Below, in pieces: positions 1 to 59,516 of a stretch of 64,000 nucleotides of DNA (within the stretch, counting starts at the first letter, position 1; the number at the start of each line of letters is the position of its first letter). The DNA is taken from positions 1 to 64,000 of the forward strand of contig PXRT01000013.1 in NCBI GenBank assembly GCA_003020925.1, in the 5' to 3' direction. The notes beneath the pieces were generated by a model that saw nothing but the letters and a program-made list of their open reading frames with translations, was not told the DNA's origin and made no database searches. The position numbers and the translations under genes are program-made. Source of the stretch: Halobacteriales archaeon QS_6_64_34 (GTDB lineage: Archaea; Halobacteriota; Halobacteria; Halobacteriales; Haloarculaceae).

Positions 1-320
1 GCTCGACTACTGCGACTCGCTGCGCGCTTCACTCACTCCGTTCGTTGCAGTGCTTGCTTCGCCTCGTACGTCGAGCGGTCGGCCCCTTTCAGTCCCGCCC
101 ATACCGGTCGGGTAATCAGTACGGGTGGGACTGAAAGGGGCGTTGTCAGCGCTGTGCGCCGACTGCTCGGGAAAGCTCGCTCTCCCGGTGGCTGGCTTCG
201 GGAAGGCGGGCGACGTAAGCACCGCAGGCCGAAGGCCGAGGAGCGCAGCGAGCCCCCCGACCGAAGCCAGCCGGAGCTTTCTGGCTCTCTTCCGCGTTTT
301 CTACTAAACTAAACACTACT
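1..320. repeat. Composite inverted-repeat element, copy 1 (left arm cut by window edge)
   Basis: Two arms face each other around a short spacer (101-122). The left arm ends in GCCCCTTTCAGTCCCGCCC (82-100) and the right arm begins with GGGTGGGACTGAAAGGGG (123-140). The right arm holds a 12-bp stem, GGCTGGCTTCGG (190-201) with CCGAAGCCAGCC (261-272), then CTTTCTGGC and an A/T-rich end (297-320) that matches the inverted terminal repeat of the copies at 21458 and 59284. The left arm has a different stem: GTCGAGCGGTC at 70-80 pairs with GCTCGAC at position 1, and its continuation lies outside the window. Short overlapping open frames here (for example 125-307) have no protein-like features and are probably spurious. 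Confidence 0.8.
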
Positions 321-5906: not shown

Positions 5907-7382
5907 ATGTTCAACGTCGGGTCGCTGCCGTCGGTAGACGGTGTCGACCCAGGGTCGACGCTGCTCGTCGTCGGTCCGCCAATGACCGGTAAGCGATCAC
6001 TTACGATGGCGCTACTCGCGGACGGCGACGACTACGAGGGAATGGCGGTGGTCTCAACCGACGAGAGCGCCGCCGACATCCGCACGTCGCTGGCCGGCTA
6101 CGCCGAACAGCCAGCCGGTGACCTCCCGCTCGGTGTCATCGACTGTGTTGGAGACTCCCACGGCACCGGCGGTCTCGGTCCGCTCGATAGCCGCGTGAAC
6201 TCACCGGCTGACCTCACCGGTATCGGCATGCAGCTGACGACGCTCATGGAGCGGCTGTACAGCGAGGGCAGACCGCGAATTCGGGTCGGACTGCTCTCGC
6301 TGACGACGATGTCGATGTACGCCGAGCCGGAGCAGGTCGTACGGTTCCTCAACGTCATCACCGGCCGTATCAGCGAAGCGGACGGCCTTGGAATCATAGT
6401 GGCCCACTCAGATACGACAAACCGGGAACATCTCCAGCAGCTCCGCTCGTTCGTGGACGGCGTCGTCGAAGTCCGAGAAGGGAACGAGGGCACCGAACTG
6501 CGTGTCATCGGGCTCGGCGGAGAGAGTACTGAGTGGACGCCGTCCACCGTGGAGCCACGGACGACTCGCCAGACGGAGTCCGAGACGACAGCGGCGGCCA
6601 CCGAGGTGCCGGTTCCGGACTCGCTCCGGTCCATATTCGACAGCGTCCGGTCGGGTGCACCGACGCTGACTGTCTGTAACTACGACGGCCCCGAAGAGGC
6701 GATGGCTATTGTCGAACGGTACTTCGACCGGCACGGCGTCGAGGTTCGTGAGGCCACGATGGATGTCTCGGAGCCACGCTCCGTTGCACTCTTACACCAC
6801 GGCGACGACCTGCTCGCCAGCGAGACGGTGACCGCGCTGCTCGGGGCTATCGATATCAGGTCGTCGAAAAACGGGGAGTTCGCCGACAGGGAGACCAGCG
6901 ACCTCCTGACGAAACTGGACCGGTCGGTGTTCGGGGCCGCGGCGGCCGACCGGTCGCTCCTCGTCGACGTGAGTCACAGCATCGAACTGCTCGCCAACCG
7001 GAACGGGAGCGGGCGGCTCCACGCCGGCTTCCAGTCCCTCTCGAATCTGGTCGAGGACGAACAGGCGGCGCGGATTTACGAGCGCCTCGCTGGAAGCGGC
7101 GTCGATGTCCACGTCTACGGCGCGCCGGACACCGAGACCGCGATTCCGGGCGTAACAGTCCACGAGGAGGACAACGACGAGATGGCCAAGTCCTGGTTCG
7201 TCGTCTACGATGGCGGCGGTGACCCGGACCAGCGAGCCGCGTTGCTCGCGCTCGAACGCGGCTCCAGCGGCGAGTTCGAGGGGTTCTGGACCTACGACAG
7301 CGACATCGGCGGCCGACTCGACGCCTATCTCACCGAGACCTACACCGGCGCGTCGGTAGCGGACGGGCAGAGCGCGGACTGA
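5907..7382 (+). CDS. RecA/KaiC-like ATPase fused to a DICT sensory domain
   Basis: The 491-residue protein has two parts. Residues about 10-205 form a RecA-fold module of the haloarchaeal KaiC-like type. It has a degenerate P-loop, GPPMTGKRS (Arg where Ser/Thr is usual, residues about 23-31), a DESAADIR helix and an IIVAHSD strand. A proline/threonine-rich linker follows. From about 236 comes SLRSIFDSVRSGAPTLTVCN and LLHHGDDLLASETVTALLGA, which resembles the DICT domain described in diguanylate cyclases and two-component proteins. The C-terminal 120 residues are unassigned. A TATA-like GCTTTTCTAT lies 25-35 nt upstream of the ATG. It is probably a signalling or regulatory ATPase; no pathway can be named from the context. 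Confidence 0.7.
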   Translation: MFNVGSLPSVDGVDPGSTLLVVGPPMTGKRSLTMALLADGDDYEGMAVVSTDESAADIRTSLAGYAEQPAGDLPLGVIDCVGDSHGTGGLGPLDSRVNSPADLTGIGMQLTTLMERLYSEGRPRIRVGLLSLTTMSMYAEPEQVVRFLNVITGRISEADGLGIIVAHSDTTNREHLQQLRSFVDGVVEVREGNEGTELRVIGLGGESTEWTPSTVEPRTTRQTESETTAAATEVPVPDSLRSIFDSVRSGAPTLTVCNYDGPEEAMAIVERYFDRHGVEVREATMDVSEPRSVALLHHGDDLLASETVTALLGAIDIRSSKNGEFADRETSDLLTKLDRSVFGAAAADRSLLVDVSHSIELLANRNGSGRLHAGFQSLSNLVEDEQAARIYERLAGSGVDVHVYGAPDTETAIPGVTVHEEDNDEMAKSWFVVYDGGGDPDQRAALLALERGSSGEFEGFWTYDSDIGGRLDAYLTETYTGASVADGQSAD

Positions 7383-7468
7383 TACTGCCGGCTGTAACAG
7401 ACTGAAGGAATTTGCCACCCCGGGGTGACAAATATCTTTACGAACTTACAGCCGGCAGTATGAGCCGG

Positions 7469-12689: not shown

Positions 12690-14070
<1,381 letters not shown>

Positions 14071-21093: not shown

Positions 21094-21812
21094 TTGACAT
21101 CCTCCGTGTGAACGCGGAGGAATCCTGAGCGTTGGAGATTTCAGGTTTGCAGTCCCACCGAGCATCCAGACGGTGAGAATCCGTGGGGATGCTCGTGGAC
21201 TGTCGCGGGTGGGACTGCTGGGAGTGCCAAGAGAGTTCAAGCGGACTCGGAGTTACTTTCGTGGTGCTTCCAAGCAGTCAGGCACTGCATCGGTTCATTG
21301 TAGGAACCGACTGTTCATCCGACTGGTTCCGATTACTGTCTCATTGCTTGGGGCGGGCAGGCCGCCATCATAGGACTGGCGGGAATCGCTCTGTTCTAGC
21401 CTGATTCCTGTGTCTGAGTAGGGTTGTCTGGCACTTCAAAACACGGATGAGAAATCTGGTAGTGTTTAGTTTAGTAGAAAACGCGGAAGAGAGCCAGAAA
21501 GCCCCGGCTGGCTTCGGTCGGGGGGCTCGCTGTGCTCCTCACTACATTGCGGTGCTTACGTCGCCCGCCTTCCCGAAGCCAGCCACCGGGAGAGCGAGCT
21601 CTCCCGAGCAGTCGGCGCACAGCGCCGACAACGCCCCTTTCAGTCCCACTCGTTGCAGTGCTTGCTTCGCCTCGTACGTCGAGCGGTCGGGGGCTTTCTG
21701 GCTGGTGACAGTCTGAATCGCCTCACTAAACACCACCAGAAATCTCGGAGTCGCTATCGCAGCGTGATGTGATTCCGTGTTGTCGGATTCATCCTGCGGC
21801 TGAAGCCCCAGG
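21094..21812. mobile_element. Remnant of an IS200/IS605-type element, itself carrying a MITE
   Basis: The left part begins TTGACATCCTCCGTG with the hairpin CCTCCGTGTGAACGCGGAGG (21100-21119), a typical haloarchaeal IS1341-type end. The right part has CCTGCGGCTGAAGCCCCAGG (about 21793-21812), which resembles the 3'-end hairpin of the intact tnpB element at 12704. No transposase frame is left between them. The MITE at 21458-21737 is inserted in the interior. Confidence 0.5.
21450..21745. mobile_element. MITE (repeat family copy 2) with perfect 8-bp target-site duplication
   Basis: The element (21458-21737, 280 bp) starts GGTAGTGTTTAGTTTAG and ends CCTCACTAAACACCACC. Read on opposite strands these agree at 13 of 17 positions. 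It is flanked on both sides by AGAAATCT (21450-21457 and 21738-21745), a perfect 8-bp duplication. The interior has one full structured arm (stem GGCTGGCTTCGG/CCGAAGCCAGCC, motif CCCCTTTCAGTCCCAC) and a truncated second arm ending GGGGGCTTTCTGGC. No protein is encoded, so it depended on a transposase acting in trans. GG-starting ends with 8-bp duplications suit, for example, IS6-like elements; that family assignment is inference. Confidence 0.85.
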
Positions 21813-39765: not shown

Positions 39766-40092
39766 TCAGCTCTCGCCGCCGGCGTCCTCGAAGACGGGCA
39801 AAACCAGGTCACCCTCTTCGATTTCCTCTTCGTCCACGCCGTTGACCAGTTCCTCCTCGTCGGGCAGTTCCGCGACGGGGACCGCTGTGGGAAGGTCGTC
39901 ACGCGTCACGACGGTGACCGTCTGGCCCTGTGCCTGGAAGCGGTCGATAGCGTCGTCCCAGGACTCCGGCGGCCCGTGTTCTGCCGTGTGGTCGACCGAG
40001 ATACCCACGTAAGCACAGTCCTGGCAGCCAAACGCCTCCCGCTCACCAAGCGTGTAGTGCGTCAGTGTTCCCCCACACCGTGGACACTCCAT
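39766..40092 (-). CDS. Small zinc-ribbon protein downstream of psmA remnant
   Basis: A 108-residue protein with an N-terminal zinc ribbon (MECPRCGGTLTHYTLGEREA, then FGCQDCAYVGIS; two CxxC pairs), a central VTVVTRDDLPTAVP and an acidic end. The function is unknown. Its first 18 codons and upstream region are duplicated at 41313-41366. The original order was evidently psmA followed by this gene. Confidence 0.78.
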   Translation of the reverse strand: MECPRCGGTLTHYTLGEREAFGCQDCAYVGISVDHTAEHGPPESWDDAIDRFQAQGQTVTVVTRDDLPTAVPVAELPDEEELVNGVDEEEIEEGDLVLPVFEDAGGES

Positions 40093-40343
40093 GCATCAGG
40101 TTTTGCTACTGTGGGGCTTAATTCTATGGTCGGCCGGAAAACGGAAGCGGTCTACTCCTCGTCGGCGTCTTCGTCCTCGGCCTCGGGGTCTGCCAGCAGG
40201 CCCGCAGCTTCCAGATGCTGTTCTTTCTCGTCGTCGGAGAGCTTGCCGAACGTCTCGGTCTCGACGTCGATAGTCGCGATACCGATTCCCTCCGGGCTGA
40301 GACCGCCCTCGGTGACCGACGCGAGCGCTTCGAGCGCGAGGTC
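40040..40343. repeat. Duplicated block, copy A (zinc-ribbon 5' end plus psmA 3' end)
   Basis: It matches 41314-41530 except for 4 substitutions in 217 aligned bases and an extra 87 bp (40245-40331) in this copy. The duplication flanks the toxin-antitoxin insert. High identity implies a recent event or continuing gene conversion. Confidence 0.88.
40152..40343 (-). pseudogene. psmA: Orphan C-terminal fragment of proteasome alpha subunit
   Basis: The codons read TDLALEALASVTEGGLSPEG, IGIATIDVETETFGKLSDDE, KEQHLEAAGLLADPEAEDED, ADEE and stop: a normal haloarchaeal PsmA C-terminus including the final helix and strand. Nothing upstream resembles PsmA. At 40344 the sequence switches to the inserted segment. 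It therefore preserves the 29 residues that the full-length psmA copy at 41426 has lost. Confidence 0.88.
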
Positions 40344-41197: not shown

Positions 41198-41313
41198 CAT
41201 CCTCCACCCACACGCCCCAGCCGAACATCGACTGCAGCGGAAGCGGAGAGAGTCCACGCGCAGACGCGTGAGTGGCCGCTGTGGCTCTGAGTCCGTGTGG
41301 CGTCGTCGTCTCA
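41198..41313. mobile_element. IS200/IS605-end-like remnant at the insertion junction
   Basis: TTGACATCCTCCACCC (from about 41198) repeats the opening of the IS remnant at 21094, and the rest (GTGGCTCTGAGTCCGTGTGG) has no coding character. It abuts duplicate copy B at 41314. It probably marks the mobile segment that delivered the toxin-antitoxin pair. Confidence 0.4.
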
Positions 41314-41366
41314 CGCTCACCAAGCGTGTGGTGCGTCAGTGTTCCCCCACACCGTGGACACTCCAT
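41313..41366 (-). pseudogene. Truncated duplicate of the zinc-ribbon gene
   Basis: It reads MECPRCGGTLTHHTLGER, one residue different from the intact gene at 40092, then runs into unrelated sequence. It is the left edge of duplicate copy B. Confidence 0.82.
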
Positions 41367-41530
41367 GCATCGGGTTTTGCCACTGTGGGGCTTAATTCTA
41401 TGGTCGGCCGGAAAACGGGAGCGGTCTACTCCTCGTCGGCGTCTTCGTCCTCGGCCTCGGGGTCTGCCAGCAGGCCCGCAGCTTCCAGATGCTGTTCTTT
41501 CTCGTCGTCGGAGAGCTTGAGCGCGAGGTC
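41314..41530. repeat. Duplicated block, copy B (attached to psmA), 87 bp shorter
   Basis: Counterpart of 40040-40343. The break is between GAGAGCTT and GAGCGCGAGG. In copy A those are separated by 87 bp, with GCGCTTCGAGCGCG on the far side, so a short GCTT-type microhomology may have guided the deletion. Confidence 0.88.
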
Positions 41531-49184: not shown

Positions 49185-49652
49185 TCAGTCCGCGAGGATA
49201 TGGGCCGGCAGGTTGTCCCGGATAATCGTCTCGCAGTACTCACACCGCACCCCGTCGTCGACGACGGCAAAGCGGGACCGGACCGGTTCGTCCTCCGTCG
49301 AGATGCAGTTGTGGTTCGGACACTCCAGGATGCCCTCGACCAGCGAGGGGCGCGAGACGCGGTGTTTCTCGACGACCTCGAACTCCCGGACGATATTGAT
49401 AGAGGCGGCGGGCGCGATGAGCGAGAGGACGTCGACCTCGTTCTGGGAGAGTTCCTTGCCCTCGACTTTGACGATGTCTTTCTTGCCCAGCCGGTCGGAG
49501 GGCATGTTCATCGCGACGGAGACCGATTCGCCGCTGGTGCCGTCGATGTCCAGGATTGCGAGGACGTTCAGCGCCTGGCCGCCGGTGATGTGGTCGATAA
49601 CGGTGCCGTTGCGAATCTTCGAGACGCGGAGTTGCCGGTCGTCGTCCGTCAT
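49185..49652 (-). CDS. pyrI: Aspartate carbamoyltransferase regulatory chain
   Basis: The nucleotide-binding, zinc-containing regulatory subunit of ATCase. The 155-residue protein has the allosteric domain ([40 protein letters not shown]) and the C-terminal zinc domain with four Cys: CPNHNC and CEYC separated by a long loop. Its start overlaps the pyrB stop by 4 nt. Confidence 0.95.
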
Positions 49653-50563
49653 TCGTTGTCCTCCAGGAGCAAGTCGAGCAGCGCCATCCTGACGGGAACC
49701 CCGTTGTATGCCTGTTCGAAGTAGGTCGCGTACTCCGTGTCGTCGACGTCGTGAGCGATTTCGTCGACCCGTGGCAGCGGGTGCATTACGGTCAGGTCGT
49801 CTTTCGCGGCCTTGAGGGTCTCGCTGTCTATCCGGTACTGGCCGGCGACCGCGCGGTACTCGCTCTCATCGGGGAACCGCTCGCGCTGGATGCGGGTGAC
49901 ATACAGCACGTCGAGTTCCGGGAGCACCTCGTCCAGTTCGGTGTGTTCGCGCACTTTGGCCCCCTCCTGGTGGAGGTCGTACCGAACGGAGCGGGGCAAC
50001 TGTAGGGACTCGGGGCTGATGAAGTGCTGGCGGGCGTCGACGTTGGTCAGCGCGTGGGCCAGCGAGTGGACCGTGCGACCGTACTTCAGGTCACCCATGA
50101 TGCCGATGGTGAGGTCGTCGAAGCCGGCGTTCTCCCGTATCGTGTAGAGGTCAAGCAGCGTCTGGGTGGGGTGCTGGCCGGCGCCGTCGCCGGCGTTTAC
50201 GAGCGGTACGTCGACGAACTCGCTGGCCATCTTCGCTGACCCCTCCATCGGATGGCGCAACACGAGCGCGTCGGCGTACCCCTCGACGACGCGGACGGTG
50301 TCAGCAAGGGACTCGCCTTTCTTGACACTCGATGACTCCACCGACCCCATGTCGACGATGTCCCCGCCCAGGCGCTTCATCGCCGTCGTGAAGCTCATCT
50401 TCGTCCGCGTGCTGGGTTCGAAAAAGAGCAGCCCCAGCAGCGTGTCCGCGTGCCGGTCGGCGTAGGCCGACGGGTCCGCCGCGATGTCGGCCGCGTGGTC
50501 GAGCACCGCCTCGATGTCGGCCCGCGACAGCTGTTTGGCGCTGATGATGTGGTCGTGCCGCAT
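49649..50563 (-). CDS. pyrB: Aspartate carbamoyltransferase catalytic chain
   Basis: The committed step of pyrimidine synthesis. The 304-residue protein carries [20 protein letters not shown] (carbamoyl-phosphate loop), [16 protein letters not shown] (80s loop), [30 protein letters not shown] (HPTQ) and [11 protein letters not shown]. The ATG at 50561-50563 (MRHDHIIS) is chosen over an upstream in-frame ATG. It is coupled to pyrI. The composite repeat lies just upstream (50681-50942). Confidence 0.95.
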
Positions 50564-50680: not shown

Positions 50681-50942
50681 ACAGCCAGAAAGCCCCGGCG
50701 AGCTGGACTCGGGGGGCTCGCTGCGCTTCTCGCTCACTGCGTTCGCTGCGGTGCTTACGTCGCCCGCCTTCGTCCAGCTCGCCGCCCCTTTCAATCCCAC
50801 CCAGCATAGACTGACCAACCGGCTACGGGTGGGACTGAAAGGGGCCGCGCTATCGGCGAAGCACGACGAAGTAAGCACGCGAACAGCGTGAGCGCGCGCA
50901 ACGAGTCGCGCGAGCCGATAGCGCGGGGGCTTTCTGGCTGTT
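50681..50942. repeat. Composite inverted-repeat element, copy 3 (two complete arms)
   Basis: Both arms are complete and face each other. The outer ends are ACAGCCAGAAAGCCCC and its mirror (to 50942). The inner motifs are CCCCTTTCAATCCCACCC and GGGTGGGACTGAAAGGGG around a 24-bp spacer. The left arm stem is GGCGAGCTGGAC (50697-50708) with GTCCAGCTCGCC (50772-50783). The right arm stem is GCGCTATCGGC (50847-50857) with GCCGATAGCGC (50914-50924). The stems differ in sequence yet keep complete pairing. This copy lacks the GGTAGTG terminal repeats of copies 2 and 4. The region 50564-51021 contains no convincing gene. Confidence 0.85.
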
Positions 50943-51021: not shown

Positions 51022-51669
51022 ATGCTCGCAATCGCCGGGGGGAAGGGAGGGTGTGGGAAGACGACGACAGCCGTCGGGCTCGCGCGCGGGCTGGCCGCCC
51101 TGGGCACGCGACCGCTGGTCGTCGACGCGGACCTCGACATGCCGGACCTCCATCACCGGACCGGCGTCGACCGACAGCCGGGTATCGCCGCTGCCGTCGA
51201 GCGCGAGGAGCCGCGTACGGTCGCACAGCCGAGCGGTCGCTTCCCGGAGATAGACGTATTACCGTGTGTGGAGGCCGATACAGCGACCGCTGTGGCGCTG
51301 TTCGAGCGGCTGTCGGTCCAGCCGGACCACGGCAGTGCCGGGGCCCCCATTCTGCTGGACTGCCCGGCCGGGGCGAGCCCGGACGCCGCCGCGCCGCTGC
51401 GGGCGGCCGACCGGACCGTCCTCGTCTCGACGCCCCGGGAGCGCAGTCTGCGGGACACGGCCAAGACGGCGGCGATGGCCCGCGAACTCGACGCCCCGCC
51501 GGCCGGCGTGGTGCTGGTCCGCAGCGACGGCCGGGTCGACCCGAGCGAACTACTCGACTGTAGTTCGGTCGTTCACGTGCCTGAGCTGTCTGAACCTCCA
51601 CTCGAAACGGAGGAATCGGCCGCGAGACACCTAAAATGTGCTAAATCGGTAACCAAGCGGAATATTTAA
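51022..51669 (+). CDS. ParA/MinD-like ATPase
   Basis: A 215-residue SIMIBI-class ATPase with a deviant Walker A, IAGGKGGCGKTTTAVGLARG (residues 4-23), a LVVDADLDMPDLH Walker A' region and ILLDCPAGASPDAAAPLRAA as the B/switch segment. It is shorter than typical MinD/ParA and lacks an obvious amphipathic membrane helix. Located 29 bp upstream of a RecA-fold protein in the same direction, so the two may act together in spatial or transcriptional regulation. No parB-like gene is adjacent. Confidence 0.78.
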   Translation: MLAIAGGKGGCGKTTTAVGLARGLAALGTRPLVVDADLDMPDLHHRTGVDRQPGIAAAVEREEPRTVAQPSGRFPEIDVLPCVEADTATAVALFERLSVQPDHGSAGAPILLDCPAGASPDAAAPLRAADRTVLVSTPRERSLRDTAKTAAMARELDAPPAGVVLVRSDGRVDPSELLDCSSVVHVPELSEPPLETEESAARHLKCAKSVTKRNI

Positions 51670-59222: not shown

Positions 59223-59288
59223 ATGAGCGGTGCCGTACAACCTACGTCGCGGCGATACAGCACAACCTGGCCGGTCTCGAAGGGGTAG
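59223..59288 (+). pseudogene. Possible gene start truncated by the MITE
   Basis: ATG at 59223 opens MSGAVQPTSRRYSTTWPVSK G, and the next codon is the TAG in the terminal GGTAGTG of the MITE. The peptide looks like an ordinary N-terminus and is preceded by a T-rich stretch about 27 nt upstream. It may be a gene interrupted by the insertion, but no continuation is visible beyond 59516. Confidence 0.25.
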
Positions 59289-59516
59289 TGTTTAGTTTAG
59301 TAGAAAACACGGAAGAGAGCCAGAAAGCCCCGGCTGGCTTCGGTCGGGGGGCTCGCTGCGCTCCTCGGCCTTTGGCCTGCGGTGCTTACGTCGCCCGCCT
59401 TCCCGAAGCCAGCCACCGGGAGAGCAAGCTCTCCCGAGCAGTCGGCGCACAGCGCCGACAACGCCCCTTTCAGTCCCACCCGCACTGATTACCAAATCGC
59501 CTAACTAAACACCACC
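59284..59516. mobile_element. MITE (repeat family copy 4), single arm
   Basis: The 233-bp element starts GGTAGTGTTTAGTTTAG and ends CCTAACTAAACACCACC (59500-59516); as inverted repeats these agree at 14 of 17 positions. The single arm has the stem GGCTGGCTTCGG (59332-59343) with CCGAAGCCAGCC (59403-59414), the hairpin GGGAGAGCAAGCTCTCCC and GTCGGCGCACAGCGCCGAC. It ends in GCCCCTTTCAGTCCCACCC. The spacer after it (CACTGATTACC) matches the copy 1 spacer, so the second arm was lost. No target duplication is seen. Confidence 0.83.

Follow-up and report, generated by a model that had tools for sequence, protein, structure and literature searches.

The window analysed here is the 64,000-nt stretch of contig PXRT01000013.1 from Halobacteriales archaeon QS_6_64_34, whose draft genome, probably of the genus Haloarcula, is 80% complete. 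Between two divergent genes of this window, which encode an aspartate/ornithine carbamoyltransferase family protein (minus strand) and a MinD/ParA-type P-loop ATPase (plus strand), lies an intergenic element with two large hairpins (Table 1). It should be mentioned that the gene calls come from an in-house codon-usage gene caller and are approximate. The element runs in the order E - stem 1 - loop - stem 1' - M' - centre - M - stem 2 - loop - stem 2' - E'. E' and M' repeat E and M in inverted orientation, which makes the element an inverted dimer whose unit, M - stem - loop - stem' - E', occurs once on each strand. The unit is an arm of ~115 nt with the plan GGGACTGAAAGGGGC - 12-bp stem - inner helices - stem' - GGGGCTTTC. 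Both main stems were located where the initial annotation of this DNA had placed them; its description of the arms needs correction, as they are on opposite strands of one dimer. Spurious ORFs cross the hairpins, in agreement with its remark that such DNA is mis-annotated as small proteins.

Table 1. Coordinates of the paired-hairpin element, its flanking genes and the IS6-type copies in the window
Feature	Position	Strand	Remark
Aspartate/ornithine carbamoyltransferase family gene, flanking	49649-50563	-	Start from in-house gene caller; upstream ATG would give 50590
Whole paired-hairpin element, inverted dimer of the arm	50681-50942		Class 2 (without IS6 ends)
Left arm, M-stem-loop-stem'-E	50684-50798	-	Covariance model match, E 4.3e-26
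E motif GCCAGAAAGCCCC	50684-50696	+	177 genomic sites at ≤1 mismatch
Left stem, outer half GGCGAGCTGGAC	50697-50708	+	
Left stem, inner half GTCCAGCTCGCC	50772-50783	+	
M motif GGGATTGAAAGGGG, minus-strand reading	50785-50798	-	
Centre, flanked by both M motifs	50799-50830		
Right arm	50831-50938	+	
M motif GGGACTGAAAGGGG	50831-50844	+	
Right stem, 5' half GCGCTATCGGC	50847-50857	+	
Right stem, 3' half GCCGATAGCGC	50914-50924	+	
E motif, inverted copy	50926-50938	-	GGGGCTTTCTGGC on plus strand
MinD/ParA-type P-loop ATPase gene, flanking	51022-51669	+	Divergent from carbamoyltransferase gene
IS6-type MITE copy	1-320		Cut off by contig start
IS6-type MITE copy	21458-21737		Internally rearranged; 8-bp target duplication AGAAATCT on both sides
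IS6-type MITE copy	59284-59516		Without matching target duplication

The predicted fold of the 261-nt element is a four-way junction, with z scores against shuffled sequences of -11.2 for RNA and -9.8 for DNA parameters, and none of 200 shuffles equals it. A single arm also folds by itself, the GAAAG of M pairing with the CTTTC of E'. In the source genome, the E motif occurs at 177 sites with at most one mismatch, compared to 9 for a reversed control, and the M motif at 61 sites compared to 2. Around 50681-50942, no IS6-type terminal inverted repeat (GG...TGTT) was found and no 8-bp target duplication could be identified. A sigma-70/terminator scan of the window copy returned nothing, including no promoter between the arms, a result to be read with the sigma-70 model being uninformative for archaea.

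The initial annotation had taken this element and the copies near 1, 21.5 and 59.3 kb as one set. Those copies were located as claimed, with stems GGCTGGCTTCGG/CCGAAGCCAGCC in all three and the GTCGAGC/GCTCGAC arm at 1-75, but copies in the source genome fall into two classes, with and without IS6-type ends, and these three belong to the first. Like dozens more, they have GGTRGTGTTTAGTT ends, and perfect (8/8) 8-bp target duplications surround roughly half of the class 1 copies in which both ends are present, including the one at 21458-21737. GG and TGTT in the ends and 8-bp duplications are the rules of the IS6 family (PMC7986276, PMC6807381). An IS6 element of ~696 bp with the same ends (GGTCGTGTTTAGTT) and 8/8 duplications is present in other Haloarcula genomes; an autonomous element with matching ends was found for the IS6-ended copies only. 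On account of these ends, the duplications and the matching IS6 element, class 1 is a MITE lineage, in which one arm pair has been captured within IS6-family ends and amplified. Some class 1 copies (L010, L041) fuse half-arms of both arms and still have perfect duplications, indicating that matched arms are unnecessary for IS6 mobility. It is noted that N runs lie within the palindromic arms of source-genome copies, so that some half-arm joins and short copies may be assembly artefacts.

The single IS6-type transposase gene found in the source genome (L097:1345-1818) is apparently truncated by a stop, and the MITEs there look recently mobile despite this apparently broken gene. The MITE also breaks the assembly, with several contigs ending within these repeats: the contig ends of C1, C4, C5, C7, C10 and C13, as well as window position 1, fall inside them.

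The many IS6-ended copies with perfect duplications, the matching element in the genus and the half-arm fusions would all fit an ordinary IS6-family MITE with palindromic arms, whose fold has no role. We consider this unlikely for the family as a whole, and the fusions have to be read with the possible assembly artefacts among short copies. Class 2, including the window element, has no IS6-type ends, and nearly each of its copies has stems of its own. Most copies in other genomes also have no IS6 ends (Haloarcula rara carries 30 arms and no IS6 match), and the family extends through the order. Moreover, neutral decay would not yield the inner-helix covariation and conserved loops described below.

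As proof of pairing, the initial annotation had cited three to four stems, which could owe their likeness to shared ancestry, three of them coming from one MITE lineage. The conclusion stands on a set of 154 non-redundant arms (<90% identical) and a tree-aware null. Each stem position in this set is 91-99% Watson-Crick, and the 184 distinct stem pairs obtained from 232 arms are 90-99% Watson-Crick at the 12 stem positions. Over 13 tallied positions of these 184 pairs, 90% of the cells are Watson-Crick, compared to 47.5% (maximum 51%) after random reassignment of the 3' halves to other arms. A 33-arm alignment has 96.5% of its cells paired, compared to 73.3 ± 0.9 when shuffled and ≤46% when slid, with both-side changes in 22 of 32 pairs. 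Covariation was evaluated with a home-made, R-scape-like procedure, a G-test with average-product correction and 25 alignments simulated per column on a FastTree tree. All 12 outer stem pairs (scores 70-350) and eight inner pairs (98-206) exceed the maximum of this null, 63, as expected from the initial claim that the main stem covaries; a tree of recombining arms is a rough null only.

In the 154-arm alignment, the stems are variable (mean column conservation 0.63) and the loops keep fixed bases, among them conserved GA/AG and AA internal loops. M and E are near-invariant, partly because they served as search patterns, a way of gathering arms that is biased against divergent ones. The M/E helix itself differs between genera, being GAAAG/CTTTC in Haloarcula and CAAAG/CTTTG in the genus g24. 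That stem sequences change and yet stay matched indicates that the fold itself is being kept.

The pairing is not symmetric between strands. Read in the M→E orientation, parsimony gives 79 events from a Watson-Crick pair to G.T, compared to 20 to A.C (p about 2e-9). The bias persists without the two strongest pairs (44 G.T and 19 A.C), and one inner pair has T.G 40 times and C.A never. A symmetric DNA palindrome would give no such bias, and the strand-specific wobble thus argues that a single strand folds. We conclude that in every arm it is the M→E strand that is folded and selected, either as RNA or as single-stranded DNA. The main stem itself is almost purely Watson-Crick, G.T making up only 1.8% of its pairs, which is low for an RNA family.

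The arm is widespread. A covariance model, the approach proposed initially, found it in 189 of 243 genomes and 60 of 77 genera of the order Halobacteriales, bearing out the statement that such DNA is common in haloarchaea. The model's E-values are rough because of a short calibration, the best matches lying near 1e-27, and loci of the same genome from two collections were de-duplicated by sequence. Most sampled haloarchaea carry arms by the dozen, per-genome counts often being lower bounds. In a phylum-wide sample, the 21 positive genomes were all inside the order and none outside. Arms are also present in intergenic DNA of plasmids of Halobaculum, Natrinema, Haladaptatus, Salinigranum and Halorussus; viral contigs and phages gave no match. 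No match was obtained in a covariance-model search of Rfam 15 at gathering and permissive thresholds, and a full-text literature search found no earlier description, consistent with the initial view that the family had not been formally described.

Copies are found in all gene contexts. None of 80 class-2 loci lies inside an ORF called by the in-house codon-usage gene caller; 45 have tandem neighbours, 25 divergent ones and 10 convergent ones. That copies are always intergenic, and that in g24 convergent genes flank 8 of 18 classifiable copies, might suggest a cis-regulatory hairpin of the adjoining genes, such as a terminator, a leader or a bidirectional terminator. This role is very improbable considering the 25 divergent class-2 loci, an orientation relative to genes that is not fixed (as seen in g24) and the window copy, which has no T-rich tail.

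The main rival to a mobile-type DNA element is a structured non-coding RNA, for which the M→E strand would be transcribed and the arm, or a ~290-nt form of it, would act as RNA, dispersed by copying. The ~290-nt form is found in g24 (L376-L395, G088). This element has a single orientation, and besides the arm, which is its 3' domain, it contains two more hairpins and a highly conserved GGCTGGGGAGGNGTGAGGTGCGG stretch; its larger closed fold speaks for RNA with a z of only -3.3. The strong covariation, the tolerance of G.T over A.C in one polarity and the conserved internal loops also suit RNA. In the initial annotation, the family was called a probable structured RNA, or else a DNA hairpin family. 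The structure is upheld by the covariation, whereas the RNA part is weakened by the 25 of 80 loci between divergent genes, the unfixed orientation and the 1.8% wobble. The Haloarcula arms, moreover, form inverted dimers, that is, opposite-strand pairs, and a few arms of the family have flipped loops. Since the copies keep neither a set position nor a set orientation relative to genes and often lie between divergent ones, we retain RNA as a possible, tentative explanation.

Orthologous loci reveal how the arms turn over. Class-2 copies such as the window element are older than the MITE copies and occupy host sites that sister species share. The site of the window element holds an element with different arms in G007 and G025, only a short E-E scar in G008, and nothing in other sister species. 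In 22 groups of orthologous loci with flanks ~90% identical, most arms are no more similar to one another than random arms (78 ± 5%), and a minority are 90-99% identical; the centre is often >90% identical although both arms differ. In a few arms, the loop lying between M and E is in inverted orientation. These comparisons indicate that a whole arm is swapped as one cassette between M and E and that the host site is retained, which explains how complementarity survives sequence change at a locus. The initial claim that stems stay matched as their sequence changes thus holds above the tree-simulated null, though mostly by whole-arm replacement and not by stepwise compensation. For the replaced arms, no within-genome pair reaches 97% identity; a donor was not found in this way, and recent gene conversion was rejected as their origin.

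Flipped loops and whole-arm replacement are rearrangements of the palindrome type, and complementarity could in principle be maintained by mutation alone, through template switching in palindromes and gene conversion between arms, with no selection. Such a process fails to predict the conserved internal-loop bases, the strand-specific wobble or the M/E helix change between genera, and is most unlikely to be the explanation.

We favour, with a rough probability of 0.45, a mobile-type DNA element that is non-coding and interspersed in genomes of the order Halobacteriales, with the ~115-nt arm as its unit and the single-stranded hairpin as the substrate of a putative trans-acting recombinase or nuclease. 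The folded strand would be single-stranded DNA, either as an extruded hairpin or as part of the lagging strand, and would be recognised in trans, by analogy with attC sites, REP/BIME repeats and IS200/605 ends. If the putative enzyme reads shape plus loop bases, hairpins would be exchangeable between sites and the stem sequence would be free to vary as long as its halves match. We count for this reading the covariation of outer and inner helices with its conserved internal-loop bases and the M/E helix change, the strand polarity with little stem G.T, and the arm replacement, empty sites, E-E scar and inverted loops. The intergenic placement in all gene contexts and the IS6 capture with target duplications and a 696-bp element of the same ends are counted with them. 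Against it, the presence of a Y1 transposase does not track arm number, and this enzyme was rejected as the partner (G001, G025, G008, G005 and G007, the last incomplete, have arms and no PF01797 match). Also counted against it are the lack of a reverse transcriptase (PF00078) in 32 Haloarcula genomes, the lack of a same-genome donor arm at ≥97% identity, and class-2 precise ends and target duplications that could not be defined. The internal loops, the wobble bias and the ~290-nt form suit RNA as well.

Several known systems resemble the mobile-type element in part. Integron attC sites work as a single strand that folds, keep certain unpaired bases conserved and leave the stem sequence free, and the hairpin arms share all three traits. 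REP/BIME repeats are intergenic, of high copy number and arranged as inverted hairpin pairs with a strand-specific fold. The haloarchaeal arms show the same features, inverted pairs of intergenic hairpins included, but are ~115 nt long with inner loops, and are uncorrelated with the Y1 transposase (RAYT) associated with REP/BIME. Mitochondrial double-hairpin elements are mobile and likewise have paired hairpins; they belong to other genomes and are much smaller. The PATEs of Haloquadratum are non-coding elements with near-terminal palindromes and variable outer ends (PMC3119063). Compared by description, they are like the present family in these respects and in being haloarchaeal; PATEs resemble IS605-type ends, and no IS605-type relative was seen here. 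Named IS6-family MITEs are MITEHarch3 and MITEBth2 (PMC6807381), and two IS6 MITEs of 227 and 336 bp have been described (PMC7986276). The three class 1 copies of the window are like these in having GG...TGTT ends and no gene, and the class in its 8-bp duplications and the autonomous IS6 element of the genus, the likeness to MITEHarch3 being one of description and not of sequence. In contrast, the element at 50681-50942 and most of its relatives have no IS6 ends, and the arms are a separate, order-wide family.

The arm may be among the most abundant structured repeats in Halobacteriales. If it acts as single-stranded DNA, an archaeal recombinase would act on folded DNA across the whole order; if as RNA, a common archaeal RNA would have been overlooked so far. 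The covariance model makes both readings testable and would help to clear spurious ORFs, and the repeat explains some assembly breaks.

A further regularity lies outside the arms. CTAG flanks many class-2 ends, with a density of 11.1 per kb beside them compared to 0.60 per kb further out, and the spacer outward from E to CTAG is a multiple of three nucleotides in 86 of 96 cases. The spacer consists of NNY triplets, with 75% pyrimidine at one phase compared to 37 and 38% at the others; the phase is common to 175 of 197 ends and the pattern is lost beyond CTAG. Arms of other genera show the same phase bias more weakly (24 of 35). At orthologous CTAG sites, spacers differ in sequence, and in length only by multiples of three, a tally that also takes in tandem end-repeats, which are not orthologues. 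Translation of the spacer was rejected, there being no conserved in-frame upstream ATG/GTG (126 of 216 with none) and the CTG in E not being conserved in other genera. A reverse transcriptase or diversity-generating retroelement was likewise rejected (PF00078 in 0 of 32 Haloarcula genomes), as was the Y1 transposase, which does not explain the pattern. Many orthologous sites agree with CTAG being a plain boundary of insertion, but neither terminal repeats nor duplications were definable, and this reading was rejected as well. We can also imagine, more doubtfully, a new haloarchaeal class of element, a single-strand-folded hairpin cassette present across the order in many copies per genome, with arms exchanged between fixed host sites and an (NNY)n spacer to CTAG. 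Its triplet phasing would point to a putative enzyme that copies or joins folded strands in three-nucleotide steps, or else to a link with translation.

At L143, L174, L168 and other loci, tandem end-repeats of about 45-48 bp lie outside E, with the form [GGGGCTTTCTGGC - locus-specific spacer - TTGCTAGC]n; the repeats of one locus are identical, those of separate loci differ. The window holds other repeats as well: another palindrome, unconnected with the element, at 7379-7464, whose two adjacent arms of 43 nt are 77% complementary; 213-nt direct repeats at 40033-40245 and 41307-41519, 97% identical and 1274 nt apart; and about 72% identical stretches at 695-993 and 12931-13226, possibly paralogous genes.
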